From assembly GCA_021787665.1 (NCBI GenBank), contig JAJYLN010000018.1:1-47305 (forward strand): a DNA stretch of 47,305 bases, in the 5' to 3' direction. The DNA comes from a bacterium (GTDB lineage: Bacteria > JAMCPX01). Shown piece after piece: positions 10,362 to 45,522 of this stretch; position 1 is the first letter of the stretch, and every line of letters begins with the position of its first letter. Position numbers and translations under genes: made by a program. Below the pieces are notes generated by a model. The model was not told the origin of the DNA. It searched no databases and saw nothing but the letters and a program-made list of their open reading frames with translations.

Positions 10362-10390
10362 TTTACAAGGGACGGTAGCGATTGTATAAG
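10362..10390 (+). promoter_or_regulatory. Sigma-70 promoter for the GH31 lipoprotein gene
   Basis: TTTACA (10362-10367), a 17-base spacer and TATAAG (10385-10390) form a near-consensus promoter 34 bases upstream of ATG 10424. The rest of the 266-base divergent gap (10158-10423) shows nothing else I can name. Confidence 0.6.
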
Positions 10391-10394
10391 AGAA

Positions 10395-10409
10395 TCCCCT
10401 ATCAGGGGA
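10395..10409 (+). promoter_or_regulatory. Short inverted repeat at the expected transcription start
   Basis: TCCCCT-ATC-AGGGGA is a perfect six-base inverted repeat that begins five bases after the -10 element and shares bases with the purine-rich GGGGAAAGG ribosome site of the GH31 gene. It could be an operator or an RNA hairpin limiting ribosome access. Confidence 0.35.
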
Positions 10410-10423
10410 AAGGATGGTGCGGT

Positions 10424-12451
10424 ATGAAAAAGAACCTGATGGCCCTGTTTGCCGCCGTTCTCCTGTCAGTGTCCTCCGGGTGCGGTAGCAGGACCAGCGG
10501 CCTGAACTTGCAGCCGATGCCCCCCACGCTTGTCCTTGGCGGACAGAGCTATACGCTTACGGTGAACAGGTCGCCCTACAGCTTCACCGTGGCATATGGC
10601 GCGAAGACGGTACTGTCGTCCATACCCTGCACGGCATCGTCTCCGGTGAGCGCTACCGGGAGCTATTCGACCGGAAGCTCCACCACGTGCACGTCTTCTG
10701 CGTCCGGGTATAGTCTCACGCCGGACGGCGCGGACGTCTACCTCCGCAGCAGCCGGGCAGGCTGGATCACCTATAGTTTCCGCTTGTCCGATACGATGAT
10801 ACAGGTAACGATATCAAGCCAGAGCGCCGCTGTAGAGAATATCGGGGACGCCTTCTCAGTAGCAACGTCCGGTCACTGGTACGGTCAGGGAGAGCTCGGC
10901 AACTACGAGAACCCGGTCGATGGGACCACACAGGACGGAGAGCAGTGGTTCCCCCTGGAGACCGGCAGCTTTACACGGTGTCCGCTGGAGACTGCCGATC
11001 AGAACAACATCACCACGCCGCTGTGGCTCACGTCGAACGGTGCGGGCCTGTTCGTTGACAGCTACGGGCCGATCTGCGTCAGCATGGGCAGCGACGTGTT
11101 TATGCTGTCCGGCAACGGGGACAGGTTCTCGTATGACGTTCTCGTGGACAGGGACATCCCTTCCCTGTACCGGGACTGGATATCAACGGACTTTACGCTC
11201 AAGAAGGCATGGCGCCCGGTACCCCTGCCAGCACCGGACATGTTCAAGGGCCCGGTATGGTCGACGTGGGCTCAGTACCTGTGGAACATCAGCCAAACCA
11301 CCGTCATCTCCTTTGCCAAGGACATCGAGTTTCAAGGGTTCCCGTACTCGATACTCGAGATCGACGACAAATGGCAGAAGCACTGGGGGGACACCGACTT
11401 CGACCCGGCGAAGTTTCCGGACCCTAAGGCCATGGTATCGCAGCTCCATGCCATGGGGTTCAAAGTCTCGCTCTGGGTACCGCCGTTCGTAGACAACGAC
11501 TCCTCCAATTTCGATGCCTCGACCCGGAGATACTTTGTCCAGGCGAAGTCAGGCGGCGTCGACCTGATAGATTGGTGGGACACTTTCGGCATCAAGAAGG
11601 CCGGGCTCATAAACTTCGCCGACCATGACAGCCTCGCATGGTGGGCCGGTCTGCTGGCCGGCATCGTGTCCGACTACGGGATCGACGGGTTCAAGTTCGA
11701 TGCCGGCGAGGCGAACTGGTTCCCCCCGGACGGTATCACGTCCGGCTATCTGTCGCCGAACCAGTACGCGGACTTCTACATAGCGCTTCATGAGCGCGTT
11801 CCTGCGATGGAATTCAGATCCGGCTGGTTCAGCCAGGATCAGGGACAGATCATGCGGGAGTACGACAAGGATTCGACCTGGGGCAACGATAACGGACTGA
11901 AGTCCGTGCTGACGCAGATGTTTGCGCTCGGGATGATTGGGTACCCGTTCGTACTGCCGGACATGATCGGCGGTAACGCGTACCCGCCGTACGGTATGCC
12001 GGATTCCGAACTCTACATCCGGTGGATAGAGATGAACGCATTCATGCCCCTTATGCAGATATCCATCGCGCCGTGGAACCCGACTATGGGGGGACTCAGC
12101 ACGCAGACGACGTCGTCGATAGCACGGTTCTACGCCGGGATACACGAATCCCTTTCGACCTATATGACAGACCTTGCCCTCAGCTCCGCACAGACCGGCA
12201 TGCCCATGGTCAAGCCGCTGTTCTTCGACTATCCCACGGATAGTACCACCTATACGATAGATGACGAGTTTCTGCTCGGGAACACCTACCTCGTGTGCCC
12301 GGTGTTCAACGCTGGCCAGACCTCCAGGGACGTCTATTTGCCGGCAGGGACATGGACGGACTACTTTACCCGGGTCACGTTCACCGGGCCTGTCACCCTG
12401 AAGGACTACCCGGCACCGCTCCAGCGCATCCCGGTATTCATAAAACAATAG
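10424..12451 (+). CDS. Glycoside hydrolase family 31 lipoprotein, MYORG-like subgroup
   Basis: ATG 10424 follows GGGGAAAGG and opens a lipoprotein signal peptide (LLSVSSGC, Cys at residue 20), so the 675-residue enzyme should be anchored in the envelope. The GH31 catalytic barrel shows YSILEIDDKWQKHWGD, the nucleophile loop DGFKFDAGE with Asp426, and PDMIGGN, where the family acid/base Asp is expected. The FKFDAGE and DMIGG forms are those of the MYORG-like branch rather than of classical alpha-glucosidases (which read DxNE and GGDIGG). Known members cleave alpha-linked galactose or glucose; the substrate here is unknown. An SDR gene follows after ten bases. Confidence 0.88.
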   Translation: MKKNLMALFAAVLLSVSSGCGSRTSGLNLQPMPPTLVLGGQSYTLTVNRSPYSFTVAYGAKTVLSSIPCTASSPVSATGSYSTGSSTTCTSSASGYSLTPDGADVYLRSSRAGWITYSFRLSDTMIQVTISSQSAAVENIGDAFSVATSGHWYGQGELGNYENPVDGTTQDGEQWFPLETGSFTRCPLETADQNNITTPLWLTSNGAGLFVDSYGPICVSMGSDVFMLSGNGDRFSYDVLVDRDIPSLYRDWISTDFTLKKAWRPVPLPAPDMFKGPVWSTWAQYLWNISQTTVISFAKDIEFQGFPYSILEIDDKWQKHWGDTDFDPAKFPDPKAMVSQLHAMGFKVSLWVPPFVDNDSSNFDASTRRYFVQAKSGGVDLIDWWDTFGIKKAGLINFADHDSLAWWAGLLAGIVSDYGIDGFKFDAGEANWFPPDGITSGYLSPNQYADFYIALHERVPAMEFRSGWFSQDQGQIMREYDKDSTWGNDNGLKSVLTQMFALGMIGYPFVLPDMIGGNAYPPYGMPDSELYIRWIEMNAFMPLMQISIAPWNPTMGGLSTQTTSSIARFYAGIHESLSTYMTDLALSSAQTGMPMVKPLFFDYPTDSTTYTIDDEFLLGNTYLVCPVFNAGQTSRDVYLPAGTWTDYFTRVTFTGPVTLKDYPAPLQRIPVFIKQ

Positions 12452-24465: not shown

Positions 24466-24479
24466 GTGACCTTGATCAC
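24466..24479. promoter_or_regulatory. CRP-like palindrome in the divergent region
   Basis: GTGA-CCTTGA-TCAC has perfect half-sites with the six-base spacing of CRP-family binding sites (consensus TGTGA-N6-TCACA; here CGTGA and TCACA). It lies between the dehydratase gene and the TPR-FecR-propeller genes, and the same block encodes an adenylate cyclase. The regulator is not in the window. Confidence 0.45.
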
Positions 24480-24547
24480 AGACAAATATTTCGTTTACCT
24501 ATAGAGGTGTCAGGATAATACCAAAGATTTTACTTGCTACACGATCG

Positions 24548-24576
24548 TACGGTGATATGCAATGTCTCCGTATAAT
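24548..24576 (+). promoter_or_regulatory. Promoter candidate for the TPR-FecR-propeller operon
   Basis: TATAAT at 24571-24576 is a perfect -10, with a poor -35 (TACGGT, 24548-24553) at 17 bases. A weak -35 would fit an activated promoter, and the CRP-like palindrome lies about 110 bases upstream of the expected start. A second -10-like GATAAT is at 24513-24518. Confidence 0.4.
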
Positions 24577-24609
24577 TTTCTAAGAATCTAAGGAGAGTAA
24601 GAGTAGACA

Positions 24610-25998
24610 ATGTACATAAGATGTGCCGTGTTATTGTGTGTTTCTTCTATTCTTATACCGGGGGGCGCCGTGGCGTCCGGGCACACGGAGGTCGTCCTGT
24701 CGCGGGCGATTGTCCTGCAGCAGGAGCACCAGTTCGACCGATCGATCGCGCTGCTCGAGGAAGCATCAAAGCAACATCCCGGCAACCCGGATATCCTGTA
24801 TTACCTTTCAAAGGCGTACCTGCTCGACAGCATGCCGCTGCGCGCACTCCACTCCATAGGGCAGGTCATAGCTCTGCGTCCGTCGGACGCTCGGGCGTAT
24901 TTCCTGGAGGGCATAATTCTTTATCGACTGAAAAGTTACGACGCTGCCGTATCTGTATTGAGTAAGTCCTCTTCGATCGACAGATCCATGCTCGGCCCTT
25001 CAAAGTACTGGACGGGTATTGTCCTGGAGGCTGCGGGCGACTATGCGGGCGCCAGGGCCGCTTATGCACAATCCATCGGTGCCTCTCCGGCATCGAACGA
25101 AGCAATGCTGTCACAGGAGAGACTGACAGCCCTGTCGCATGCAATCGCAGAGCACCTGTACTACAGCTCGAGCGTATCCACAGGCGTGCAATACGACTCC
25201 AACGTGGTGGATCAACCTTCGACGCTCCCTTCCCGAAAGTCGGACGAGCGGTGGGTCATAGGCGCGGATGCCGGGCTCGACTACAGGCCCAGGGCCCTGT
25301 CCGTCAAAATGGGTCTCGATCTCGACGCAGGGATAAACACGAGGCTACACGATTTCGATACGAAGTCCGTACTGTTCTCCGTCGAGCCGTACAGGGACAT
25401 CGGCAGATTCAGGATAGCCATAAAGGGCCGTACATCGTACATGTTATTTGGGAGATATCCGTACATAGCGGAGGAGGACGTCATACCTTCGGTCACCCTC
25501 CATACCCCAGGCGACATGGGCTTCCGCGTCTATGCAAAATTGGACCATCTGGACTTCCTCGATCAGGCTGAACAACAGACGTACGGGAGGTCTACGGAGC
25601 CCCTCGGAGACAGGACACTCGGCGCGGACATAACGGAAAACTTCGCACAGGGATATATAAGGGCAGGATACGGATACGAAGACTATGACGCCAGGGGGCA
25701 GTACGCCGACATGTGGGACGACACTGCCCAGTATGGAGCCATCTCCGGAGAGATAGGGATAGCCAAAAGCTTCTTCCTGGACATAGGCATCGATTACGGA
25801 GACACCTCCTATACGGACCAACCGGTGTCCCCGAAAAGACACGATCGGATCGCATCCGCCGACGTGGGAATTTTCTATCGGTTCGTCGATTCGTGGTTCG
25901 CAAGTATTTCTGATCTTTACACAGCCAACAGCAGCAACCAGAGCGACTATGCATACAACAGGAACATCGTATCCCTACTTCTTACAAAGGAGTTTTAG
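24610..25998 (+). CDS. Outer-membrane protein: periplasmic TPR domain plus C-terminal beta-barrel
   Basis: The 462-residue protein has a signal peptide (cleavage near AVAS, about 23), TPR helices over about 27-175 (RAIVLQQEHQFDRSIALLEE, then YYLSKAYLLDSMPLRALHSI, AYFLEGIILYRLKSYDAAVS and WTGIVLEAAGDYAGARAAY), and from about 180 alternating beta strands with aromatic girdles ending in LLLTKEF. The terminal Phe is the usual barrel signal. The layout is like TPR-barrel proteins (Slam-like or DUF560-like architecture), but I cannot assign a family. It is followed two bases later by the FecR gene, so both are co-translated. The ribosome site AAGGAGAG is rather far (about 14 bases) from ATG 24610. 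Confidence 0.75.
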   Translation: MYIRCAVLLCVSSILIPGGAVASGHTEVVLSRAIVLQQEHQFDRSIALLEEASKQHPGNPDILYYLSKAYLLDSMPLRALHSIGQVIALRPSDARAYFLEGIILYRLKSYDAAVSVLSKSSSIDRSMLGPSKYWTGIVLEAAGDYAGARAAYAQSIGASPASNEAMLSQERLTALSHAIAEHLYYSSSVSTGVQYDSNVVDQPSTLPSRKSDERWVIGADAGLDYRPRALSVKMGLDLDAGINTRLHDFDTKSVLFSVEPYRDIGRFRIAIKGRTSYMLFGRYPYIAEEDVIPSVTLHTPGDMGFRVYAKLDHLDFLDQAEQQTYGRSTEPLGDRTLGADITENFAQGYIRAGYGYEDYDARGQYADMWDDTAQYGAISGEIGIAKSFFLDIGIDYGDTSYTDQPVSPKRHDRIASADVGIFYRFVDSWFASISDLYTANSSNQSDYAYNRNIVSLLLTKEF

Positions 25999-26000
25999 CC

Positions 26001-26822
26001 ATGCTTCTAAAAAGAATGATTCTGTTTATCGTAGGTATGTCGATCCCGTCGATGGCGTTTGCACAATCTATAGGCAATGTCGTATCGTATACCGGACGGG
26101 TTGAGATAAGAAGGGGCGCGGGGGTCCTTCTGCCAGAGATCGGAACAGACATCTTCAGGAAAGATGTTGTCCTGACAGGGGCCAACGGGAGAGTACGGAT
26201 CCTGTTCATGGACAACAGCGTCGTGAACATCGGTCCCGGCTCAGAGATACGTATGCAGCACTACGAGTCCACGCCCTCAAAGAGGGACGTTTTGTTATCC
26301 ATGCTCAGGGGAAAAATTCGGTTTTTCGTATCGAAGCTGACCAACATGTTCAACACCTACGATATCCATACGATAACAGCGATAATAGGGATACGGGGCA
26401 CCAATTTTATCGTAGCGGCGTCCGGTAAAGCAACCGACCTCTATGTAGTAGGAGGCGTTGTAAACTTCAAGAATATCCTCCAGCCACAATCCCCCGGTAT
26501 CGAAGTCGTGGAAGGCACGATGAGCTCTGTCCGGACGAGCGGTGAGCCATCAGCACCCGTGAGATACACCGATGCGCAGATACGCCAGATGATACAAGAT
26601 ACAACGGTACCTTTCAGTGACAACTTGACCACCAGCTATAACTCTATCGCTCCCCCCCCACCACCCCCTGTTGGGAATCTGTCGAGGACAATCCCGGTGG
26701 TTCAGAACGTGCTCCAGCAACCGCAGCACCAGACGACCACGCCTGCAGCCGTGCCCGGAGCCGTGCCGCCCCCCCCGGTGTCCGTCAATATCGGCGTAAA
26801 TTACGGCAAGGTCGCACGATAG
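26001..26822 (+). CDS. Exported FecR-domain protein
   Basis: The 273-residue protein has a clear signal peptide (cleavage after SMAFA, residue 22) and a FecR domain over about 25-155: IGNVVSYTGRVEIRRGAG, then TGANGRVRILFMDNSVVNIGPGSEI and the typical TITAIIGIRGTNFIVAAS. The C-terminal third is Pro/Gln-rich, with a six-Pro run. No sigma factor or TonB receptor is nearby, so it is unlikely to be a FecI-type regulator; stand-alone exported FecR domains act as envelope scaffolds. Two C8 tracts (26652-26659 and 26769-26776) lie in the tail. Two bases after the TPR-barrel gene and nine before the propeller gene. Confidence 0.85.
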   Translation: MLLKRMILFIVGMSIPSMAFAQSIGNVVSYTGRVEIRRGAGVLLPEIGTDIFRKDVVLTGANGRVRILFMDNSVVNIGPGSEIRMQHYESTPSKRDVLLSMLRGKIRFFVSKLTNMFNTYDIHTITAIIGIRGTNFIVAASGKATDLYVVGGVVNFKNILQPQSPGIEVVEGTMSSVRTSGEPSAPVRYTDAQIRQMIQDTTVPFSDNLTTSYNSIAPPPPPPVGNLSRTIPVVQNVLQQPQHQTTTPAAVPGAVPPPPVSVNIGVNYGKVAR

Positions 26823-26831
26823 GAGAATGGC

Positions 26832-29198
26832 ATGAAAAGATATACTCTCTATGGTTGTGCACTGATCGTCATCACTGCCCTGAGTGCAGGAATAGCGGGC
26901 TGCAGCCCTGCAAAGGGACTGGTCCCGGTCACGGTCCGAATCGGCCTGTTCTCACAAAACACCCTGCACACGCTTTCAAGCTCGACCCTGACCGGCAACA
27001 CATCGCTCCCCACACTCACGGCCCTTCAGTTCCATATCGCGATGTATGATCTCAGAATAACCGGCACCGGCTTCTCGCCCATCCACGTCGTCGTGCCCGC
27101 GTCCCTCTCTTCCGCCGGTACAGCGATAACTGCGCTCGTAGAACCCGGCGCCAACAGGTATTTCTCACTTACCGCAATACCCGATTCTATCTTTACATTT
27201 CAGTCCGGAAGCCCCTCGCCGTCGTACTCTTATTATTATGCGTCCACACAGGCGGACATAGCCCCAACAGCCAATCAGGTGATAACCATGCAGATGCAAG
27301 CCGTACCCCAGACAACGGTAACGATAAGCCTCGTCGACCCTTCAGGGGCCCCCTACGGAGGGGAAGCGCTTGTCGTCGTACAGGACATGGATACCGGATA
27401 TCAGTTGTTTTCCTATGGGTATTCGTCATACCTCAATAGTGTGTACTCTCCGGCAACGCTGACGCTCCCCATAGGCTATAGCATCCATGTGGTCGCCATC
27501 GACGGTACCAACATGAGTACCGGCACGGTCGACTTTATGCCATTTACATCGACAATTACCCAGACGACGATAACCATGACGAAGGTAACACAGACAACCA
27601 TCTCCGGCTCATATTCGGGCAGCCTGTGGGTTGGCGAGGGCATCACTCCGCTGGCACAGAGCGGTCTGGTCGTCCAGCTCTTTACGGGGGCTTCCACGCC
27701 CGCATTCAGCACGACCACGGATGCCTACGGGAGTTTCCATATTCCAGACATGCCGTTCGGCAGCAGCGATTTCGAGATTATCGATCCGATCACACAAAAC
27801 ATGATAACTTCGTACAGCGTCGTCATATCGTATAATGGTCAGGCCCTTCAGTCCAGACTGCCGATATACGTACCGAGTTTGTATACCATGTCGTATCTGG
27901 CCACTATTACAGGCACGTACCCGAACAATACCAAGCTCCTGTGTCTCATACCCGCCAGTAAGGCCAACATCTCTTTTGACCCTCCGCCTGTAACGGCACT
28001 GATCCAGTTGACGTTTACCACATCGCCGGCAGTCTTTGCCCAGTCCATCACGCTGTCCGCTGTCAACAGCACCTACCCTCTCGCATTCGATACGACTCCC
28101 CTCACGGGCACCTCAAGCACCTACACCGTTAGTGCGGTGTTTGCTGACGGCAGTGATATTCCTCTCATGACGTCACCATGGTATAGGTTCCACGGCAACA
28201 TGCAGTCGACAGGCTTGAGCACCATAGACACGGGGCCTGATGTCGGGGCATTATCCTGGTCATTCACCACGGGAAACCAGATAGTCTCCTCCCCTGTCAT
28301 AGGTGCGGACGGCACGATCTATGTCGGCTCGAACGATGACCGACTCTACGCATTTTACTATGGCGGTCTTAAATGGTCATGCACAACCAATGGGTGGATA
28401 CAGGCCACCCCGGCGATAGGCCTACATGGCACGATCTATGCGAGCTCGTACGACGGTAACCTTTATGCGGTCAATCCCGACGGCACCGTCAAATGGCTAT
28501 ACACAACGGGTAACAATTTAGCCTCTTCTCCTGTCGTGGGCCCGGACGGTACGATCTATGTCGGGTCGAACGACGATCACCTCTATGCGATCGCCCCCAC
28601 CGGGGTACTGAAGTGGTCGTTTACGACAGGCAACTGGGTGAAGTCCACGCCGGCTATAGGCGCGGACGGCACGATCTACGTGGGCTCGCAGGACGATTAC
28701 CTCTATGCGATCACCCCGACCGGCGGGCTGAAGTGGTCATTCCCTACCGGCAACTATGTCCTGTCTTCGCCTGCCATAGGTCCGGACGGGACGATCTACA
28801 TCGGCTCGTACGACCATAACCTGTACGCGATCACGCAGAGTGGAGGACTCTCCTGGTCGTACACGACAGGCAACTCCATACTGTCCACGCCGGCCATTGC
28901 CCCGGACGGCACGATCTACGTCGGGTCTCAGGACGGTGCCCTTTATGCATTATCCCCGACCGGCGGGCTGAAGTGGTCTTACACGACGGGTAACGCGATA
29001 TGGTCATCGCCCGCGATCGGGGCCGACGGCACCGTCTACGTGGGCTCTTACGACGACCGTCTCTACGCTATTACCCCGACCGGCGGTGTGAAATGGTCGT
29101 ACACGACCGGTAACTGGATATATTCTTCGCCCGCGATCGGGGCCGACGGCACCGTCTATGTCGGATCAGACGATGGGACCCTGTACGCAATTCATTGA
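26832..29198 (+). CDS. Lipoprotein with an eight-repeat PQQ-like beta-propeller
   Basis: ATG 26832 follows AGGAGAA; the signal peptide ends SAGIAGC (Cys24), so this 788-residue protein is lipid-anchored. Residues 30-470 are beta-rich with carboxypeptidase-regulatory-like segments (for example TISGSYSGSLWVGEGITPL). Residues about 472-788 form eight repeats of about 39-40 residues with the pattern W-S-x-T-T-G-N, then S-S/T-P-A-I-G-x-D-G-T-I-Y-V-G-S, then LYAI. This is a PQQ-like (WD-shaped) propeller of the BamB fold type; the cofactor-binding residues of true quinoproteins are not expected in such short blades. It may bind or scaffold envelope partners. A hairpin terminator follows. Confidence 0.85.
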   Translation: MKRYTLYGCALIVITALSAGIAGCSPAKGLVPVTVRIGLFSQNTLHTLSSSTLTGNTSLPTLTALQFHIAMYDLRITGTGFSPIHVVVPASLSSAGTAITALVEPGANRYFSLTAIPDSIFTFQSGSPSPSYSYYYASTQADIAPTANQVITMQMQAVPQTTVTISLVDPSGAPYGGEALVVVQDMDTGYQLFSYGYSSYLNSVYSPATLTLPIGYSIHVVAIDGTNMSTGTVDFMPFTSTITQTTITMTKVTQTTISGSYSGSLWVGEGITPLAQSGLVVQLFTGASTPAFSTTTDAYGSFHIPDMPFGSSDFEIIDPITQNMITSYSVVISYNGQALQSRLPIYVPSLYTMSYLATITGTYPNNTKLLCLIPASKANISFDPPPVTALIQLTFTTSPAVFAQSITLSAVNSTYPLAFDTTPLTGTSSTYTVSAVFADGSDIPLMTSPWYRFHGNMQSTGLSTIDTGPDVGALSWSFTTGNQIVSSPVIGADGTIYVGSNDDRLYAFYYGGLKWSCTTNGWIQATPAIGLHGTIYASSYDGNLYAVNPDGTVKWLYTTGNNLASSPVVGPDGTIYVGSNDDHLYAIAPTGVLKWSFTTGNWVKSTPAIGADGTIYVGSQDDYLYAITPTGGLKWSFPTGNYVLSSPAIGPDGTIYIGSYDHNLYAITQSGGLSWSYTTGNSILSTPAIAPDGTIYVGSQDGALYALSPTGGLKWSYTTGNAIWSSPAIGADGTVYVGSYDDRLYAITPTGGVKWSYTTGNWIYSSPAIGADGTVYVGSDDGTLYAIH
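28246..29196 (+). repeat. Eight tandem coding repeats of about 117-120 bp
   Basis: The units share near-identical DNA such as GACGGCACGATCTA(T/C)GT(C/G)GG around each GTIYVGS, and the last two share long identical runs (for example GCCCGCGATCGGGGCCGACG). Nucleotide-level similarity suggests recent expansion by unequal recombination. Confidence 0.8.
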
Positions 29199-29223
29199 TA
29201 AAGCCGCGGGCTTTCCCTATCGT

Positions 29224-29269
29224 GTGCGGCCGGAACGATCCGTGTTCATCGGTCGGGCCGCACGGTTTT
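29224..29269 (+). terminator. Terminator-like hairpin after the propeller gene
   Basis: GTGCGGCC (29224-29231) pairs with GGCCGCAC (29256-29263), with an inner CGAT/ATCG pairing, and GGTTTT follows. It separates the TPR-FecR-propeller genes from the MoxR-VWA-cyclase genes, so the second group may have its own promoter or depend on read-through. Confidence 0.5.
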
Positions 29270-29309
29270 GATACGCTGGTCGCTGTTGCATAATGGAGGA
29301 ATAGCGGCT

Positions 29310-30269
29310 ATGATTGACGTGGAGCCACTACCCCGAAAGGAACAGGTTATGAAGAAGATACGGCAGTTCAAGTCCCCGGGCGAGATCACGGCACTATTGA
29401 GGCAGGGAGAGTACATAGCGAACGAGGACATAGCCACGGCGATATACATAGCGGGCCTTCTCTCGAAGCCCCTGCTCGTAGAGGGACAGCCCGGGGTAGG
29501 TAAGACGGAACTCGCAAAGTCCTTCTCAAGGGCGCTCGGTCTGGAACTCATACGTCTGCAGTGCTACGAGGGCATCGACGATACGAAGGCGGTGTACGAG
29601 TGGGAGTATTCCAAACAGCTCCTGTACGCGCAGATGCTGAAGGGAAAGATAGACGAAATACTTGGGGACGCTGCCGACCTCGCATCCGCGATGGGCAGGC
29701 TGAAGTCCTTCAACAGCACCTTCTTCTCCGAGGAGTTCATCATCAAAAGGCCCCTGCTCAGGGCGATATCGTCGCCGGAGCCGGTGGTCCTTCTCATCGA
29801 CGAGGTCGACAAATCCGAGCCCTCGTTCGAGGCGCTTCTCCTGGAGGTCCTGAGCGACTACCAGATCTCGATACCGGAGATAGGCACGATCCGGGCGGCG
29901 TCGATTCCCTTCGTAGTGCTGACGAGCAACAACGCGCGGGACCTCTCGGACGAGCTACGGCGGCGCTGTATTTACCTCTATATGAACATGCCGGACAGCG
30001 CCCGGCAGATGGAAATCGTCGGGGCGAAGCTCGGCAACAGGGTATCCGCTGATTTCCTGAAGATGGTCAGCGGTATGCTCTCGCTGATCAACGCGCAGGA
30101 CCTGAAGAGGCCCCCGAGCCTCTCCGAGATCATCGACTGGTCCGTATCGATCGCGTCCGCGGGTATCGACAAGGACCACGTCTCCGTATCCTCGCTGGGC
30201 AGCCTGCTCAAGGACGATTCCGACCAGCAGAAGGCGTTCGCGGCGCTATGGAAGTCGCAGAGTCGGTAA
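29310..30269 (+). CDS. MoxR-family AAA+ ATPase
   Basis: Start ATG 29310 is chosen because GGAGGA lies nine bases upstream; ATG 29349 with AAAGGAA is a second option and would remove 13 residues. From 29310 the protein has 319 residues, with Walker A GQPGVGKT at 59-66, Walker B VVLLIDEVDKSEPSFEALLLE, sensor 1 VVLTSNNARDLSDELRRRC and the MoxR C-terminal lid. MoxR ATPases work with VWA partners as chaperone-like remodelling machines, for example in maturing metalloenzymes. The next gene, a VWA protein, overlaps it by 22 bases, which is the classic arrangement. The target is unknown. Confidence 0.9.
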   Translation: MIDVEPLPRKEQVMKKIRQFKSPGEITALLRQGEYIANEDIATAIYIAGLLSKPLLVEGQPGVGKTELAKSFSRALGLELIRLQCYEGIDDTKAVYEWEYSKQLLYAQMLKGKIDEILGDAADLASAMGRLKSFNSTFFSEEFIIKRPLLRAISSPEPVVLLIDEVDKSEPSFEALLLEVLSDYQISIPEIGTIRAASIPFVVLTSNNARDLSDELRRRCIYLYMNMPDSARQMEIVGAKLGNRVSADFLKMVSGMLSLINAQDLKRPPSLSEIIDWSVSIASAGIDKDHVSVSSLGSLLKDDSDQQKAFAALWKSQSR

Positions 30270-31636
30270 AGCTCGCCTCCCGGTTGTACACCTTCCTTGC
30301 CGGGCTCGGGATGCCCGTGTCCCCGGTAGAATTTGCACAGACGGCCTTCACCATAGAGCAGTCAAGGCCGGACACCTACGATGCCCTGAAGCGCACGATC
30401 GTGCCGATCATGGCGAAGAACAAGGAGCACCAGGTATTGCTGCAGCAAATCATGGACTTCCTGCTGACGACGTCGGACGACTGGGAAAGGCTCGGCCAGA
30501 CGCTTGGCTCCCGGGTAATCGACCCGGACATCCTGAGGCAGACTGCCCCGTCTATCGCGCGGATGGCAGCATGGCTAAACCACCCCGAGCTCTTTTACAA
30601 GAGGCTTCAGGATCTCTATAGGGAGCTGTACGACCGCTACGGCGAGAGGGTGATGAACTCCGGTTACATGATGCTTTCTGACGCACTCGAGCTCGGAAGG
30701 CCGGAGAAGGAACTCGCCGCACTCGCCGGGGCGCTCGGGCTTGCGGGATGGAGCCCGGCAGAAATCAAGCAGCTGATCTCCGCCATCGAAAACATGCTGC
30801 TCTTCGTACGGAAAGGTATATCCGAGTTCATCATGAACGCGTCAAAAGTAATGGGCGCGGTGAGCGTGCTCCACGCGGGCGAGCCGAAGTCCGGGCCCAA
30901 AGAGCTCTGGAATATCCCGCTGTCGTTCCTCTCTATGAAGGACATGGAGGCTATAAACCAGATCATCAAGCGTCTGGCACTGCGCCTGCGGCAGGACATC
31001 AGGAGGAGACAGTACGGGGTGCTCTCGAGCGAGGTCTCGATACGGCAAACTCTGAGAAGCAATGCGGGTCGGGATGCCCTCATCCAGCTCGGGCACAGCA
31101 AGATCAAGAAACTCGAGTCGCCGCTTATCGTGTTGTGCGATATATCCGGCTCGATGCGCAACTACGCGAGGTTTTTCATGCAATTCATCTCTATCATCAA
31201 GGATACGTTCAAGAGGCTGCGGGTATTCGTCTTCGTATCAGACATACAGGATGTGACTTCGCTCGTGCGGTCCCGGCCGGCGGACGAGGCCATCGACAGG
31301 ATATTCGCGGATTACCGGGAAGCAAGGACCTACACGGACTATGGCAATGTCTTCAGGCAGTTTACGCGGAAGGGACTCGGCCTGGTCACGACGAAGACGA
31401 GGCTCCTGATAATCGGCGACGGCAGGTCGAACTACCAATACCCCGGCGACCAGGAGCTCGCCACGATCAGGAAGAAGTCGAAGGACATCCTCTGGTTCAC
31501 CCCGGACGAGCAGTACTCGTGGTTCGTAGGCGACAGCGAGATGAACCTCTACAGCCGGTATACGGACGAGTTGTTCGTGGTGAGGACGCTCGGCGAGCTG
31601 ACGATCGCGCTCGAGTCGCTGCTGGACCACCGATAA
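30248..31636 (+). CDS. VWA protein of the CoxE type, partner of the MoxR ATPase
   Basis: The 462-residue cytoplasmic protein has a helical N-terminal part (about 1-250) and a CoxE-like von Willebrand A domain in the C-terminal part. The MIDAS motif is DISGSM, starting at Asp298; TYTDYGNVFRQF supplies the Thr position and IIGDGRSNY the second Asp. The domain ends with FVVRTLGELTIALESL. It overlaps the MoxR gene by 22 bases, so the two are translationally coupled, as in CoxD/CoxE and CbbQ/CbbO pairs. None of the known partner enzymes (CO dehydrogenase, Rubisco, nitric oxide reductase) is visible here, so the client is open. Confidence 0.88.
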   Translation: MEVAESVKLASRLYTFLAGLGMPVSPVEFAQTAFTIEQSRPDTYDALKRTIVPIMAKNKEHQVLLQQIMDFLLTTSDDWERLGQTLGSRVIDPDILRQTAPSIARMAAWLNHPELFYKRLQDLYRELYDRYGERVMNSGYMMLSDALELGRPEKELAALAGALGLAGWSPAEIKQLISAIENMLLFVRKGISEFIMNASKVMGAVSVLHAGEPKSGPKELWNIPLSFLSMKDMEAINQIIKRLALRLRQDIRRRQYGVLSSEVSIRQTLRSNAGRDALIQLGHSKIKKLESPLIVLCDISGSMRNYARFFMQFISIIKDTFKRLRVFVFVSDIQDVTSLVRSRPADEAIDRIFADYREARTYTDYGNVFRQFTRKGLGLVTTKTRLLIIGDGRSNYQYPGDQELATIRKKSKDILWFTPDEQYSWFVGDSEMNLYSRYTDELFVVRTLGELTIALESLLDHR

Positions 31637-31674
31637 CATCGCTGCGCCACTCCGCCACGCGGGGGAGCCAGGCG

Positions 31675-33918
31675 ATGGACTTTTTATGTTTGTTTATGTA
31701 TACCGTGGCAATGGCTAAAAAATATGCATATTATGCCATGGGGGGCATACTGCTCTTTCTGCTCATGGCACTTGTCGTCGTTAATCCGTATCCGCTCATT
31801 GCGATCAACCTTAAACTGACCGATTTTATGATGATGCATAGGATTTACCACGCTCCACGGTCCCACGTGGTCGTCGTTGCCGTAGACGAAAAGAGCCTCG
31901 AGCAATTGGGCAGATGGCCATGGGACAGGTCCACGCTCGCATCCATCATAAACAACCTGAGTGCCGCACATCCCTCTGCGATAGGACTGGACATAGTGTT
32001 CTCGGAGCAACAGCACAATAGGACAAGACATTTACTCATGCGGATCGACGGGGAACTCAGTACCCTGCGCGGAACAGCCGGCGTACGGGAGGACATACAA
32101 CAGATGTTGACGGGCCTACCCAACTCGGACGAGGTCCTTGCCGGATCCATAGCGAGGGCAGTAAACGTGGTGCTTGGCTATTTCTTCTACATGTCGAAGA
32201 GCCAGATACCGGTCGGCATGGACATTACGGACATGTCCTTTGCATTCTCCCAGATATCGTCCAGCACGCTCCCGGTAATCAGGATAGGTACCCCGAACAT
32301 CAGACAGGCTTACTTCCCTGTGGTGAACATACCCACGATCAGCGCCGCAAGCCTCTATAAGGGTTTCTTCAATATGTCCCCTGATCCCGACGGTGTCGTA
32401 AGGGACTATACGCTTGTCCAGATCGCCCACGGCAGAACCTTCCCTTCCTTCGCGCTGGCACTCGCCTCCCTCTACACCGGGACACAGCCGCTCGTTACCG
32501 AGGACAGTACCGGGATAGATTCCATAAAATTACTTCCGCAGTCCGGCAGTGCGATCCGAATCCCTGTGGACAACTATGGCAGGATGATCATAAACTATCC
32601 ACCCACAGGGCACGCTGTTCCGGTGCTCTCCGCGGTAGACGTGCTGAGAAACAGCTTTCCCCGCAATCTCATCTCGCATAGGGCTGTGCTCATCGGTGTA
32701 ACGGCGCCGGGACTGTACGATCTGAGGGTCACCCCGGTGAGTAACGCCCTCCCGGGCATACTCGTCCACGCCTATACTGCAGAGCAGATAATAGACAGAC
32801 GCTTCCTGACGGACCTCTCGCAGAACCCGCTCGTGAACATCCTGATTGTGATTGTCCTGGCCGCCGTTTTAATCGCGGCCATGAAGAAGACATCTTCACT
32901 GCTGTTCCTGATCGAACTCGCGGCATCGGCGCTGGGCTTCATTGTCACAGTATTCATGCTGCTTTCCTATACCTCCACCATCCTTAATATCGTGTATCCT
33001 GTCTCGGCCATAGTACTCTTCGGCATCGTCCTGTCTTCCTACAAGTACGCCGTAGAGGAAAAAAAGGGACGCGGGATCAGAAAGGCGTTCAGCCACTATG
33101 TCAGCCCTACTGTGGTAAGGGAGATCATAAAGGCGCCGGACGCGTTGAAATGGGGCGGCGAGAAGAAAGACATCTCCATCCTGTTTTCTGATATAAGGGG
33201 GTTCACCAGGCTTTCCGCGTACCTTATGCCGGAACAGGTGGCCCTATTGCTGCACGAATACATGACAGGCATGACCAGGGTCATCTTGAACAACGAAGGC
33301 ATGCTGGATAAGTACATAGGCGATGCGATCATGGCGCTGTTCGGCACACCGCTGTCGGTAGCCGACCATGCCGACAGGGCAGTATCGTGCAGCATGGAGA
33401 TGCGCAGGGCCCTCGAGGACGTCAACAGAAGGCTCCGCAGCCTGAGCCTGCCTTCGATATCCATAGGTATCGGCATCAACAGCGGAGAGGCCATCGTCGG
33501 GAATATGGGTTCCTCGATGTTGTTCAATTACACGGCCATAGGAGACCACGTGAATATCGCATCAAGACTCGAAGGCCTGAACAAATATTACGGCACGAAC
33601 CTTATCATATCGGAGTATACCTACGATCGCCTGCCTTCGAAGGAGCCGTTGTGCAGACTGGACAGGGTCATCCCGCAAGGTGCAGACAGACCTATCTCCC
33701 TCTATACGATACTTCCCGAGGACATCCGCGGTTTTAAGGAGACCTATGAGCGCGCGGTATCGATGTACCTGGATGGCAGGTTTCAGGATGCCCGAACAAT
33801 ATTTTCTGGACTCTCATGGAACTTCCAGGCCGCACGGCTCATGGAAGAGAGGTGTGCCATGCTCGCTACGGCTGATAAGGCGACATGGGAAGGCTTCTAC
33901 AGGTTTGAAAAAAAGTAA
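31675..33918 (+). CDS. CHASE2-domain adenylate cyclase
   Basis: ATG 31675 has GGGGGAG upstream; the longer open frame to the left is only the shadow of the VWA gene. The 747-residue protein has one N-terminal transmembrane helix, an extracytoplasmic CHASE2 sensor domain (about 41-370), three further helices (about 383-465) and a class III cyclase domain. Metal-binding aspartates are Asp506 (LFSDIRGFT) and Asp550 (KYIGDAIM); Lys546 and the Asp of NYTAIGDHVNIASR are adenine-type specificity residues, and Asn and Arg of VNIASRLEG are the transition-state pair. All catalytic residues are present, so cAMP production is likely. A short TPR-like tail follows (SMYLDGRFQDARTIFSGL). Confidence 0.9.
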   Translation: MDFLCLFMYTVAMAKKYAYYAMGGILLFLLMALVVVNPYPLIAINLKLTDFMMMHRIYHAPRSHVVVVAVDEKSLEQLGRWPWDRSTLASIINNLSAAHPSAIGLDIVFSEQQHNRTRHLLMRIDGELSTLRGTAGVREDIQQMLTGLPNSDEVLAGSIARAVNVVLGYFFYMSKSQIPVGMDITDMSFAFSQISSSTLPVIRIGTPNIRQAYFPVVNIPTISAASLYKGFFNMSPDPDGVVRDYTLVQIAHGRTFPSFALALASLYTGTQPLVTEDSTGIDSIKLLPQSGSAIRIPVDNYGRMIINYPPTGHAVPVLSAVDVLRNSFPRNLISHRAVLIGVTAPGLYDLRVTPVSNALPGILVHAYTAEQIIDRRFLTDLSQNPLVNILIVIVLAAVLIAAMKKTSSLLFLIELAASALGFIVTVFMLLSYTSTILNIVYPVSAIVLFGIVLSSYKYAVEEKKGRGIRKAFSHYVSPTVVREIIKAPDALKWGGEKKDISILFSDIRGFTRLSAYLMPEQVALLLHEYMTGMTRVILNNEGMLDKYIGDAIMALFGTPLSVADHADRAVSCSMEMRRALEDVNRRLRSLSLPSISIGIGINSGEAIVGNMGSSMLFNYTAIGDHVNIASRLEGLNKYYGTNLIISEYTYDRLPSKEPLCRLDRVIPQGADRPISLYTILPEDIRGFKETYERAVSMYLDGRFQDARTIFSGLSWNFQAARLMEERCAMLATADKATWEGFYRFEKK

Positions 33919-33977: not shown

Positions 33978-36900
33978 ATGCTGTCGAAAACACGAGCACG
34001 GTTGTTCAGGGCAGGACGGGCGGTCTTCGTCGTGTCCGCATTGGCGCTTGCGGGCTGTATCGGGAGCCACAGCTCCGGGACTTCGATAGGTCCGAACGAC
34101 CCGTTCACGGGTCTCTCCGTAAACCAGACGATACCGGTGCCGGGGGGCCAGCTGCAGTCTCCGGTCGAGATCATCAGGGACACATGGGGCATCCCCCACA
34201 TATACGGGAGGACGATGACCGATGTCGCGTTCGCGCAGGGCTATGCGGAGGCGTCGGACAGGCTCTTCGAGATGGACATGTTCAGGCACATCGCCGAAGG
34301 TACGCTGACAGAGTACTTCGGTCCGGGTCCGGGCAACTCCGTACTGAACCAGGACATCCACTCGAGGATCATGGGTTTCTCCACGATCGCACAGATCGTC
34401 TATGACCAGACCCCCGCGGACCTGAAGGGGGTGCTCCAGTCGTTCTGCAACGGGATAAACTTCTACCTTAGTCAGCTTGCCCAGCAGGTACAGGCGAACC
34501 CGAATGCAAACGTTCTGCCCGCGGAATACTCGAGCGCCCTGATGGGGATCACCATCGGCGACATAAAGCCGTTCACGCCCCAGCAGATCATAGCGTTCGG
34601 AAAGTTCGAGTCCTACAGCCTCACGATGGAGGACGAGGGCATGAAGATACACGCCACGCACTACTTCGACGCAGCGTCCACGAAGTTCACGTCCAGCTCG
34701 TCGGACCCCGGACTGGCCCACTTCTCCGGGCTGTCGTACGACTTTGCACGCTCGGAGCCGGCTGCGAAGGCGCCGGCCGTGCCCCTGCCGAACCCGTTTT
34801 CCTATGCGACGTCGACCACGTTTTCGTCTCTTTCTGCAGGCGCGCTCCTCAACCCTCAGTCTCTTTCCGGCCGACCGGTAGGCCCTGCTCTGCAGCCCCT
34901 GCAAGCAGACCAGGCAGCCGTACAGGGCGCCGAGGGATTCTATAACTCCCTGCGCAACGGCCCCTTCGGGTTCCTGTATAAGGACCGCGAGGCAGGGCAG
35001 ATAGGCAGCAACAATTGGGTCATCAGCGCACGGCTGACAAAGGACGGGTATCCGATACTGGAGAACGACACGCACCTCCCGCTGTATAACCCGCCGATCT
35101 GGTACGAGGTCCAGGTCAACACGAAGGCCCTCGGCAACGGCAACATCAACGTCATCGGTGTCGTGTTCCCGCTGGCCCCGGGGGTTATTATAGGACACAA
35201 CGACAACATCGCGTGGGGCGATACGGTGTTCCCGTCCGACGTGATAGACGTCTATCAGGACACCGTGGTCCCGGGGGGGGCTGGCAGCCCGGACTCGATC
35301 ATCTACAACGGACAGCTCCTACCGATACAGACCGTGCCCATGACCTTCCGGTATGGGGGTGCCTTGAGCAGGGGACTGACGGCAAAGAGTATCACGGTGG
35401 ACACCTACTATGTCACGATACCAGGGCATGGCACGATGCCCCTCTACCCCGGCAGCTACACGAAGGGATCCTCTGCGGCGCTGGCTTTTACCTGGACCGG
35501 CATGATGCCGTCGAACGAGTTCCAGGCATTCTACGGCATCGACCAGGCACAGAACCTCGCTCAGTTCATCACTGCGCAGAGCTTCTTCAAGGTCGGCGGA
35601 CAGAACTTCGTTTACGCGGATACCGCCGGGCATATCTACCTGACGGACCAGAGCTGGATACCGATACGCGGGGCGTATACCATGAGTTATACGACGAATT
35701 CCCTGCCGAGCGGCCTGGCTTTCAGCGACTTCACCTATCCCCCGTACCTCATTCTCCCGGGGAGCGATCCCAATTTCTACTGGACCGGCGCCATGGTACC
35801 TGCGGCAGCGGTCCCGTTCACGGAGGATCCGGCACAGGGCTACATAGCAACGGCGAACCAGGACCCGGTCGGCGTGACATTCAACAACGAGCCGCTCGAC
35901 AACCCGTATTATCTGGGCGGCTTCTTCGACCCCGGGTTCAGGGCACAGCAGATAGACAGGGACATAGAGGCCGCAGGCACGGGGAACATCGACCTCCCTT
36001 ATGTCCAGAACATACAGTCGGATCACACGGACACCTATGCTGAGAGGATACTGCCGTTCCTGCAGAAGGCGTATAACGACATGGCGAGCTCGATCACCGT
36101 GACCTCGGACCCGCAGATAGCGGTCGCGATGAATTATCTGGATCAGTGGACGACTTCCACGCGTCCCTACGATACGCCGACCGGGCTCTCGTCGTCCGCC
36201 TCGGCACAGGACATCAGCGACAGCATCGCAACCTCCCTGTTCGAGGGATTCGCGCAGAGGCTGTTTTACAATATCTTCTATGACAAGATACAGGCCATCG
36301 GGCAGGACAGGGCGATAAGCGACAACATCATCATCAACACGCTGCTCACCATACTCGAGCACCCGGAGCAATGCGCCACGTATGCGCCCCTGGAAGGACG
36401 CAGCACGCTGCTCGACGCGCTCGTGCCCACGACTTCGGGCTACACCTTCAGCGAAAGGACCCTGGACCAGGTCATGATCCAGAGCCTTGCACAGGGGATC
36501 AGCGACCTCACGGTTGCCACGGACCCCAAGCTTGCGGTGACCACGAGCTTCGGGACCTCCGCTATGTCGCAGTGGGAATGGGGAAAGCTACATACCCTGA
36601 CCTTCTTCGATCTGCTCAACCTCGCCGCGGGTAACATATTCCCGCAATTTAACCTGCCCAACAGCGGTACCGGCTATCCCAGACCAGGGAGCATGTTCTC
36701 GGTCGACCCCGGGACGTTCGGATTCGAGATGGGCAACGGCGGTGCGCCGTTCTACACGGATTACACCTATGGTGACGGCCCGGCGATACGGTTCTCTGTG
36801 GAGATGAAGCCGGGCGCCATTGTCGGCTACAACGTCCTGCCTGGCGGAGAGTCAGGCATGGGGCCCGATCCGAACAACCCGCCAAAGCATTACGGCGATC

Positions 36901-37001
36901 AGGTAAGCCTGTGGATTAACAATCAGGTCCACCCGCAGTGGTTCTACGCCAAGGATATCATAAACCACGAAGAGTCGAGGATGATATTCATGCCACAGTA
37001 A
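33978..37001 (+). CDS. Penicillin acylase family (Ntn-hydrolase) lipoprotein
   Basis: ATG 33978 directly follows GGGAGGAAAC. The signal peptide ends ALALAGC, so this 1007-residue enzyme is lipid-anchored. The family N-terminal half (IIRDTWGIPHIYGRTMTDVA, then FAQGYAEASDRLFEMDMFR) precedes the autocatalytic cleavage site at IGSNNWVIS, where Ser344 should become the N-terminal nucleophile of the beta subunit; HLPLYNPPIWYEVQV and GHNDNIAWGDT follow. Family members hydrolyse amide-linked acyl groups such as penicillins or acyl-homoserine lactones; the substrate is not predictable. It is longer than typical members (about 750-850). A G8 run lies at 35273-35280. Confidence 0.9.
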   Translation: MLSKTRARLFRAGRAVFVVSALALAGCIGSHSSGTSIGPNDPFTGLSVNQTIPVPGGQLQSPVEIIRDTWGIPHIYGRTMTDVAFAQGYAEASDRLFEMDMFRHIAEGTLTEYFGPGPGNSVLNQDIHSRIMGFSTIAQIVYDQTPADLKGVLQSFCNGINFYLSQLAQQVQANPNANVLPAEYSSALMGITIGDIKPFTPQQIIAFGKFESYSLTMEDEGMKIHATHYFDAASTKFTSSSSDPGLAHFSGLSYDFARSEPAAKAPAVPLPNPFSYATSTTFSSLSAGALLNPQSLSGRPVGPALQPLQADQAAVQGAEGFYNSLRNGPFGFLYKDREAGQIGSNNWVISARLTKDGYPILENDTHLPLYNPPIWYEVQVNTKALGNGNINVIGVVFPLAPGVIIGHNDNIAWGDTVFPSDVIDVYQDTVVPGGAGSPDSIIYNGQLLPIQTVPMTFRYGGALSRGLTAKSITVDTYYVTIPGHGTMPLYPGSYTKGSSAALAFTWTGMMPSNEFQAFYGIDQAQNLAQFITAQSFFKVGGQNFVYADTAGHIYLTDQSWIPIRGAYTMSYTTNSLPSGLAFSDFTYPPYLILPGSDPNFYWTGAMVPAAAVPFTEDPAQGYIATANQDPVGVTFNNEPLDNPYYLGGFFDPGFRAQQIDRDIEAAGTGNIDLPYVQNIQSDHTDTYAERILPFLQKAYNDMASSITVTSDPQIAVAMNYLDQWTTSTRPYDTPTGLSSSASAQDISDSIATSLFEGFAQRLFYNIFYDKIQAIGQDRAISDNIIINTLLTILEHPEQCATYAPLEGRSTLLDALVPTTSGYTFSERTLDQVMIQSLAQGISDLTVATDPKLAVTTSFGTSAMSQWEWGKLHTLTFFDLLNLAAGNIFPQFNLPNSGTGYPRPGSMFSVDPGTFGFEMGNGGAPFYTDYTYGDGPAIRFSVEMKPGAIVGYNVLPGGESGMGPDPNNPPKHYGDQVSLWINNQVHPQWFYAKDIINHEESRMIFMPQ

Positions 37002-43247: not shown

Positions 43248-43964
43248 ATGATGGTAAGAACACTCAAAGTATTGCTGATTATCGGCACACTATTCCTGTC
43301 GGCACCTTCCTATGCCGTGAACATTACCCCGGAACAGTGGTCCCGCCTTAAAGAGGGCGAGATCATCAAATGGCTCGATAACATCAAGGGGACCGAGGTA
43401 AAAAAAGGCGTTGCTATCGGCATCGTCAATGCGCCGCCGGAACGGGTTTGGAAGGTCATACACGAGAACAACGATTTCACCCACTTCATGCCGAGAATGC
43501 TGGAGAGCATCCTTATATCTCCCTCCGTACTCCCGGAGGCTGAGTCGCTGAAGTTCGACCATGACACCGGCGATCCGAAGCAGCTCATCAGTCTCCTGAA
43601 AAAGCACAGGGTCCCCGGGTTCACCGGCACTACCGGGTATTTCTTTGCCGTGCTGAGCGTGCCCTGGCCGGCGACTAACAGATGGTACATCCTCAAACTC
43701 GAGGACGTCGTCACGTCGGACAGGTGGTTCCAGCACTGGAGCATGGTCATGGGCAACCTGAAGACGAACGACGGCTCCTGGGAGCTGACCCCGCTCGACA
43801 ACGGAAGGACACTCGCGACCTATACCGTGTTTGCTGACCCCGGTGGGCTTATCCCTGACTGGATCATAAACCTGGGCACGACCCAGACCCTGCCGGACGT
43901 GATAAGGTCGCTCAGGAAGAGGGTCAAAGAGGAGTCCCGCCCGGAGCTTGGGAACAAAAAATAG
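43248..43964 (+). CDS. Exported START/SRPBCC-like lipid-binding protein
   Basis: ATG 43248 (followed by a second ATG) has GGGAG seven bases upstream; the longer frame adds an unlikely basic extension before the signal peptide. The 238-residue protein starts with a signal sequence (LLIIGTLFLSAPSYA, cleavage near residue 23). The mature part (KKGVAIGIVNAPPERVWKVI, then HFMPRMLESILI and a Trp-rich second half) has the SRPBCC/START order of a hydrophobic ligand cavity. Most bacterial members are cytoplasmic, so export is notable. Ten bases separate it from the GH1 gene. Ligand unknown. Confidence 0.72.
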   Translation: MMVRTLKVLLIIGTLFLSAPSYAVNITPEQWSRLKEGEIIKWLDNIKGTEVKKGVAIGIVNAPPERVWKVIHENNDFTHFMPRMLESILISPSVLPEAESLKFDHDTGDPKQLISLLKKHRVPGFTGTTGYFFAVLSVPWPATNRWYILKLEDVVTSDRWFQHWSMVMGNLKTNDGSWELTPLDNGRTLATYTVFADPGGLIPDWIINLGTTQTLPDVIRSLRKRVKEESRPELGNKK

Positions 43965-43974
43965 AGGAGAAGGT

Positions 43975-45522
43975 ATGAAGCACTATGGATCACTGTCGAT
44001 TGTCCTGATCGTGCTGGGCGTGCTGGCGTCGTGCAGCAGCAAGTCCGGTGGCACAGCGCGGATCAATTTCCCGAAGGGTTTTCTGTGGGGTGTCTCCACT
44101 GCGGCCGAGCAGAGCGAGGGAGGCATCACGAACAACGACTGGTATGTATGGGAGCAGATGGGCAAGACACCGCCGGTAGGGCTCGCGGATAATTTCTACA
44201 ACCTCTACGCCGAGGACTTCACGAACGCGCAGACGATGCACCTCAACGCCTTCAGGCTGACCTTCGAGTGGTCGAGGATAGTCCCGAACAAACCCGCGAA
44301 CATCTACGCCCCCCTGATACCGGCCGACGTCGATATGAGGGAGGTCAACCACTACCATGCAGTCATAAGCTCCCTGATCGCCCACGGCCTGGTGCCGGTC
44401 GTCACCCTGACGCACTATACCGTGCCCCAATGGGTTGACGACCCCGCCGCGTACGACAAGACGAGCAATAGTTTTACGGACGGCTCCCTGGGTGGCTGGA
44501 CAAACACCGCAACCGCATACGCATTTGCCAACTACGCCGGCTTCATGGCGCAGCAGTTCTCGGCCACCGTGAAGTACTGGCTCACGGAGAACGAGCCGCT
44601 GCCGGACACCCTTGCCGGCTATGTACTGGGCCAATATCCGCCCGGCTTCATGAATATCAGCTATCTTACCGCCACGACGATGCCTTTCTCTGCGAGCGTC
44701 GTTACCGTGTTAAAGAACATGATCCAGGGACACGTCCTCGCCTACCATGCGATACACGCTGCGGAGCCGAACGCCATGGTGAGCATCGCTAAGAACTCCA
44801 TTTATGCCAGTGCCATACCGAACGACCCTGCATCTGCCAGAGCGGCAGTGGCCTTCGATCACGCATACAACCTGGTATATCTCGACGCCGTGACCAGGGG
44901 CGTATTCGACAACGGCCTGACCGGCACCACGTTCACGGAGCTGCACCCTGCTTGGGCGAACACGCTCGATTACATCGGCGTGAACTACTACAGCAACGAC
45001 TATGTCGTCCCTTTCTCCGGCATCCTGATCCCGATAAATGCGGTGCCGTGTGACCCGACCATAGGGGCGGTGATCCCGCTCAACTCATTGGGCTGCCCTG
45101 CCCAGAATCCATCGGAGACGCAGGGCCTCACGGATATCCTGACGGAGTACGCGCAGCGCTATCATCTTCCCATGCTGATAACGGAGAACGGGTACGGGAA
45201 GGCCGATCCCATAGGCAAGACCAGGTACATCGTACAAAACATCATGGCAGTAAAGGACGCCATGGACCTCGGCGCGAACATGCTCGGGTACCTGTACTGG
45301 ACCATGGATTACGACTACGAGTGGACTTCCGGCTACGCCCAGAACTTCGGGCTTTTCTACGTGGATGACTTCACCAGTTGTACGAAGCCGGACTGCGGGC
45401 TTGTCCCTGCCACGGCAACGGACTTCACCAGAACATCGGTCCAGCCGGCCGTGGACGTCTATGCGGCCATAGCGGCGGGGAGCAGCATAAGCCCGTCGAT
45501 CATCGACCAGTATGGGCATTGA
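43975..45522 (+). CDS. Glycoside hydrolase family 1 beta-glycosidase lipoprotein
   Basis: ATG 43975 follows GGAGAAGG. The signal peptide ends LGVLASC, so the 515-residue enzyme should be a lipoprotein; most GH1 enzymes are cytoplasmic. GH1 hallmarks are FPKGFLWGVSTAAEQSEG, FRLTFEWSRI, the acid/base motif TENEP (Glu207), YIGVNYYSND and the nucleophile ITENGYG (Glu404), then LGYLYWTMDYDYEW. Family members cleave beta-linked glucose, galactose or fucose; the substrate is unknown. The NNDWYVWEQ segment resembles the archaeal/thermophile branch. It overlaps by none with, but ends one base before, the next gene start. Confidence 0.9.
   Translation: MKHYGSLSIVLIVLGVLASCSSKSGGTARINFPKGFLWGVSTAAEQSEGGITNNDWYVWEQMGKTPPVGLADNFYNLYAEDFTNAQTMHLNAFRLTFEWSRIVPNKPANIYAPLIPADVDMREVNHYHAVISSLIAHGLVPVVTLTHYTVPQWVDDPAAYDKTSNSFTDGSLGGWTNTATAYAFANYAGFMAQQFSATVKYWLTENEPLPDTLAGYVLGQYPPGFMNISYLTATTMPFSASVVTVLKNMIQGHVLAYHAIHAAEPNAMVSIAKNSIYASAIPNDPASARAAVAFDHAYNLVYLDAVTRGVFDNGLTGTTFTELHPAWANTLDYIGVNYYSNDYVVPFSGILIPINAVPCDPTIGAVIPLNSLGCPAQNPSETQGLTDILTEYAQRYHLPMLITENGYGKADPIGKTRYIVQNIMAVKDAMDLGANMLGYLYWTMDYDYEWTSGYAQNFGLFYVDDFTSCTKPDCGLVPATATDFTRTSVQPAVDVYAAIAAGSSISPSIIDQYGH

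Follow-up and report, generated by a model that had tools for sequence, protein, structure and literature searches.

A TPR-barrel, FecR and CHASE2 adenylate cyclase cluster as a candidate envelope-to-cAMP relay with a CRP-type site

CHASE2 is a common receptor domain, few of whose cues and partners have been identified, and FecR, often together with a tetratricopeptide repeat (TPR) barrel protein, is its regular genetic partner in many phyla. Here we analyze a gene row on a bacterial contig of 47,305 nucleotides (JAJYLN010000018.1 of assembly GCA_021787665.1; the whole stretch is referred to as the window) that encodes a TPR-barrel protein, a FecR-domain protein and a CHASE2 adenylate cyclase, and compare it with the closest described systems. 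In Campylobacterota, every adenylate cyclase identified is a CHASE2 protein, and most are encoded in clusters with genes for FecR, TPR and phosphodiesterase proteins; the authors propose a single pathway for the cyclase, FecR and TPR cluster, and the phosphodiesterase, reported for most but not all clusters, is treated here as a usual rather than an obligatory member (PMC9239204). In S. meliloti, CHASE2-cyclase activation and Clr-dependent transcription both depend on NsrA, a barrel of the outer membrane (PMC7529298, PMC13001267). In Burkholderia, the BiofilmReg operon combines FecR and CHASE2 with a kinase (PMC5192318).

The window contains a row of seven plus-strand genes between the minus-strand genes ilvD (start 24387) and proS. 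It begins with a TPR and 14-strand β-barrel protein with a signal peptide and predicted outer-membrane location (24610..25998, +; Pfam TPR), followed after 2 bp by a FecR-domain protein with an N-terminal signal peptide, a predicted periplasmic location and a proline-rich tail (26001..26822, +; PF04773 8.6e-15); further downstream lies a class III adenylate cyclase of the inner membrane with a CHASE2 domain (31675..33918, +; PF05226 9e-57, PF00211 7.5e-21). TPR-barrel, FecR and CHASE2-cyclase form a real, recurring unit, and the window holds a local copy of a widespread and already described cluster type, in an unusual layout and with a CRP-type site that is kept across genera. As in the Campylobacterota clusters, an intact CHASE2-cyclase is linked to a FecR-domain and a TPR protein; unlike there, a propeller lipoprotein, MoxR and VWA are interleaved, an acylase also stands in the row, and the phosphodiesterase homologue of this genome lies on another contig, where it adjoins a CRP-like gene. 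The NsrA–CyaD1/CyaD2/CyaK–Clr pathway likewise comprises an outer-membrane barrel, CHASE2-cyclases, a FecR protein encoded beside a cyclase and a CRP-family regulator. However, the barrel portion of NsrA is described as residues 600–1200 and is thus far larger than the 462-residue TPR-barrel of the window, and the core motif of Clr, GTNNCNNNNGNNAC, differs. In BiofilmReg, a periplasmic FecR-domain protein also adjoins a CHASE2 sensor, but it signals through a histidine kinase/response regulator, the FecR protein carries LysM, and neither a cyclase nor a TPR-barrel is present.

The original prediction, which had joined these families into one signalling module, was to be abandoned if their co-occurrence did not exceed chance or if the genome lacked a CRP-family regulator; such a regulator is present, and the linkage of FecR and CHASE2 is far beyond chance. 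Among 60 sampled genomes, with the window's own locus left out of the hits, a FecR domain lies within 10 kb of 11 of the 59 CHASE2 genes, compared with 0.65 expected from random placement, and VWA_CoxE was found within this distance in no case. When the flanks of 80 named CHASE2-cyclase loci taken from a GTDB scan were searched with a purpose-built FecR hidden Markov model, FecR was detected at 33 of them; Pfam confirms 32 of these 33 open reading frames (ORFs). Most adjoin the cyclase gene, about 24 being no more than 400 bp away from it. The TPR-barrel is a regular third member: TPR proteins predominate at the position immediately before FecR (of 17 tested, 11 match TPR_19 and 4 SlipAM), and contiguous TPR-barrel/FecR/cyclase operons occur in Sulfurimonas, Geobacteraceae, other Deltaproteobacteria and Paracoccus. 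FecR directly precedes the cyclase in a Nitrospirae bacterium, the tail of whose FecR protein matches TPR weakly, and in metagenome-assembled genomes of Trichlorobacter and Geobacter; the distant genome G049 has the cyclase in one locus with TPR, FecR and an NHL propeller. Two FecR proteins of the CHASE2-cyclase loci match TbpB_B_D. In Bradyrhizobium and related genera (L104, L130, L133, L135, L157), the FecR partner of the cyclase is a protein of 1200–1800 residues, and these partners include some with cadherin-like, Ig and RTX domains.

The C-terminal half of the window's TPR protein has no Pfam match, yet the barrel that the original prediction ascribed to it agrees with the predicted structure: The AlphaFold (AF2) model (mean pLDDT 82, from a 10-row alignment) consists of a TPR array followed by 14 β-strands. 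In the PDB, BcsC is its nearest fold over the whole length; the barrel comes closest to CymA and OmpG, and the TPR part to MamA. Ten proteins encoded upstream of FecR in other clusters align along its full length. An N-terminal TPR part followed by a 14-strand barrel is shared with the SLAM/type 11 secretion proteins (DUF560), and some cluster relatives match SlipAM; unlike these, the window protein has no match to Pfam SlipAM (DUF560) at E 10, the sole match in this comparison being TPR_Slam at 0.13, and an exported cargo as part of the window system is hypothetical.

For the FecR protein, PF04773 is the sole Pfam domain. As in FecA–FecR–FecI, a periplasmic FecR domain is accompanied by an outer-membrane partner encoded nearby; however, an N-terminal signal peptide takes the place of the cytoplasmic anti-sigma part and membrane anchor, and neither a sigma factor nor a TonB-dependent receptor adjoins it. 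A role as canonical anti-sigma factor was rejected because of this signal peptide, the absence of any other domain and the lack of a sigma factor gene in the row. The window protein (26760–26822) and a Geobacteraceae FecR protein (L125:9013-9933) have in common a linker rich in proline and, C-terminally, a VNIGV stretch that is β-strand-like and possibly serves as a docking tail. The next gene, 9 bp downstream, encodes a PQQ-type β-propeller lipoprotein (26832..29198, +; PF13570/PF13360; lipobox IAGC by sequence reading), presumably an envelope or surface component, which is probably part of the core set.

The original prediction had also placed a CRP-like palindrome upstream of the row. We found it as an exact GTGA-N6-TCAC, GTGACCTTGATCAC (24466..24479, without strand), 144 bp 5′ of the TPR-barrel start codon; it is the only exact match in the window, where 0.77 are expected by shuffling, and the chance of an exact site inside the 222-bp gap 5′ of the TPR-barrel gene is 0.23%. 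In another, related genus (G004), an exact site, TGTGATTGTTATCACA (G004:C35:2527-2540), stands 99 bp before a remnant of the TPR-barrel gene, with a chance of 0.34% for this gap. ATCACAGACA is common to both sites, outside which the two TPR promoters show no significant DNA similarity. The remnant, which together with the intact upstream palindrome spans G004:C35:1598-2540 (L069/L171), consists of TPR-barrel codons 7–64 joined to cyclase codons 529–749, with frameshifts. Because it connects the start of the one gene to the end of the other, its sequence indicates that TPR-barrel and cyclase once stood in the same order in G004, at a different chromosomal place, and were fused by an internal deletion. 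We consider an assembly chimera improbable, because additional frameshifts are present in the cyclase part, as would be expected of a decayed gene. The divergent neighbour is clpB-like in G004 versus ilvD in the window; an ilvD element is therefore disfavoured, the TPR gene being the common factor. Since an exact copy precedes the TPR-barrel remnant despite the different other neighbour, the palindrome most likely belongs to the TPR-barrel/FecR/cyclase cluster; this copy is the strongest sign that the site is a genuine element of it.

A candidate reader of this site is the CRP protein encoded in the genome, which combines cNMP-binding and Crp-type HTH domains and has a GTGA-type recognition helix, RETVSR, where E. 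coli CRP has RETVGR. It occurs in 7/7 genomes of the family searched, all of which also keep GE and RS in the nucleotide pocket. T127/S128, present in E. coli CRP, is not retained, so that this protein is a putative cAMP binder only; regulation through the palindrome would likewise be presumed. Clr acts on the FecR gene; the putative counterpart in this organism would be the RETVSR-helix CRP together with the conserved palindrome before the TPR-barrel.

The cyclase itself has the intact catalytic residues that had been claimed for it: D506, D550, K546, D624, N627 and R631 are present and invariant across 12 aligned CHASE2-cyclases. In class III cyclases, such residues constitute the two metal aspartates, the lysine/aspartate pair for adenine and the asparagine/arginine pair. 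It is the only CHASE2 protein in the genome and one of three class III cyclases, for which reason we rejected it as the sole source of cAMP.

In the relay that we favour, the barrel would be an outer-membrane component whose TPR part faces the periplasm, and the FecR protein would be periplasmic. Together, they would pass a cue from outside the cell or from the envelope to CHASE2, the periplasmic domain of the inner-membrane cyclase. The cue-activated cyclase would then make cAMP, which would load the CRP-family regulator; binding of the latter to the palindrome would tune transcription of barrel and FecR. We hold this reading of the core set, an envelope-to-cAMP relay with CRP feedback, with about equal belief and doubt; the position of barrel or FecR upstream of the cyclase, the physical contacts, the cue and the direction of signalling are all presumed. 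Its general idea, already contained in the original prediction, is sound and has largely been anticipated in the literature: The step from barrel to cyclase has a precedent, and for the step from FecR to cyclase the outcome was negative in the only system tested.

Several observations weigh against the relay. In S. meliloti, the FecR protein encoded by smc02177, beside cyaD1, is not needed for signal perception and is itself a cAMP/Clr-activated target (PMC5498481); functional data come mainly from this one rhizobium, in which the barrel is needed and the FecR protein is not. No FecR was detected at 47 of the 80 CHASE2-cyclase loci, some of which are cut by contig ends. A genome of the same genus, whose cyclase contig was deposited as 'Deltaproteobacteria bacterium isolate FK_Sedi_A_Bin.102', has orthologs of the cyclase (70% identity) and of FecR (50%), each solitary and on separate contigs. 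Genome-wide counts lend the palindrome no significance: 22 exact GTGA-N6-TCAC sites occur in 2.25 Mb, no enrichment over the about 37 expected (scaled up from the window shuffles). Near the 80 CHASE2-cyclase loci, site density is 2.1 per 100 kb upstream versus 1.6 elsewhere, with palindromic control patterns at roughly 0.3–1.6; this is not convincing, although single loci (L090, L116, L135) look good. Finally, cAMP could come from either of the other two class III cyclases.

The behaviour of smc02177 also suits a reversed direction, in which the cyclase senses alone via CHASE2, and TPR-barrel, FecR and propeller are outputs under cAMP/CRP control; the barrel would then export surface proteins in a SLAM/type-11-like manner or anchor them. 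The CRP-type site before the barrel gene, the SlipAM and TbpB_B_D matches among the cluster relatives and the many FecR partners that are giant cadherin/Ig/RTX proteins point the same way. On the other hand, CHASE2-cyclase activation in S. meliloti needs an outer-membrane barrel, NsrA. The occurrence of FecR with CHASE2 kinases as well hints that its partner is the sensor domain and not cAMP, and the window barrel does not match SlipAM; we consider the reversed direction possible, albeit somewhat unlikely. As the operon of three genes is compact and the CRP-type site conserved, a position upstream versus downstream of cAMP is directly testable. A further proposal is speculative and rather doubtful: An exporter-related TPR-barrel and FecR would signal to the CHASE2-cyclase whether surface proteins (the propeller lipoprotein here, giant cadherin/Ig/RTX proteins elsewhere) are assembled or occupied, with cAMP–CRP feedback on the barrel operon, constituting a general sensor of outer-membrane status in many phyla.

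The same-genus genome bears on a further explanation, namely that the row arose by rearrangement, with no cooperation in this organism between cyclase, FecR and barrel: There, cyclase, FecR and MoxR–VWA–acylase are found on three separate contigs, with no cyclase between VWA and acylase. The linkage across phyla, the barrel/cyclase remnant with its conserved site in another genus and the fact that solitary genes can still cooperate in trans make such independence quite improbable.

The order, domains and shared plus strand of the six proteins named in the original prediction agree with the ORFs and Pfam matches, but not all of them belong together. A MoxR/MadB-like AAA ATPase (29311..30269, 29311 being the better start, +; AAA_5, MadB-like) follows the propeller after 112 bp and overlaps the gene of a VWA_CoxE/MadC-like protein (30248..31636, +; PF05762), which ends 38 bp before the cyclase; 59 bp behind the latter, a penicillin-acylase family lipoprotein (ATG 33978; 33978..37001, +; PF01804 2e-135), omitted from that prediction, extends the row. 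Close spacing and the same strand would fit a single module, with the ATPase and the VWA protein serving to mature the membrane complex or to activate it. However, in all other genomes of the organism's family that have it, which are nearly all, MoxR–VWA stands in other contexts, for example behind rseP- or tsaB-like genes, also where no CHASE2 was found, and none of the 80 CHASE2-cyclase loci has a homologue of MoxR, VWA, the acylase or the PQQ-propeller. In the same-genus genome, MoxR–VWA–acylase–proS are contiguous and the acylase leader is conserved. We therefore rejected MoxR and VWA as module members, a full-row module being very improbable, and regard MoxR, VWA and penicillin acylase as neighbours juxtaposed through rearrangement; of the proposed membership, the TPR-barrel, FecR and CHASE2-cyclase stand. 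We found no paper connecting MadB/MadC with MoxR.

No cAMP phosphodiesterase homologue is encoded in the window; the one found elsewhere in the genome (G000:C14:63841-64533) is of class-II type, and its gene is overlapped by the CRP-like gene (G000:C14:63144-63815), the pair occupying G000:C14:63144-64593 (L067); another CRP-like protein of the genome is encoded at G000:C15:44199-44873. A homologous CRP–phosphodiesterase pair directly follows a CHASE2-cyclase in the myxobacterium Citreicoccus (L106; order CHASE2-cyclase, CRP, phosphodiesterase). CRP-like and phosphodiesterase genes are among the neighbours of CHASE2-cyclases in other genomes, and a class-II-type phosphodiesterase occurs at 17/80 loci.

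Elsewhere in the window, which is rich in envelope hydrolases and propellers, GH31 (10382–12451) and GH1 (43948–45522) glycosidases resemble lipoproteins. The second FecR protein of the genome (41013–43151, +) combines FecR with DUF6600 and is conserved in G003 and G006, two genomes from a different genus of the family, there without CHASE2 linkage. In two other genera (G002 and G005; L039, L040), a more distant CHASE2-cyclase lies near nagZ and an ABC permease gene, the window counterparts of which are located 9–12 kb upstream of the cyclase row.

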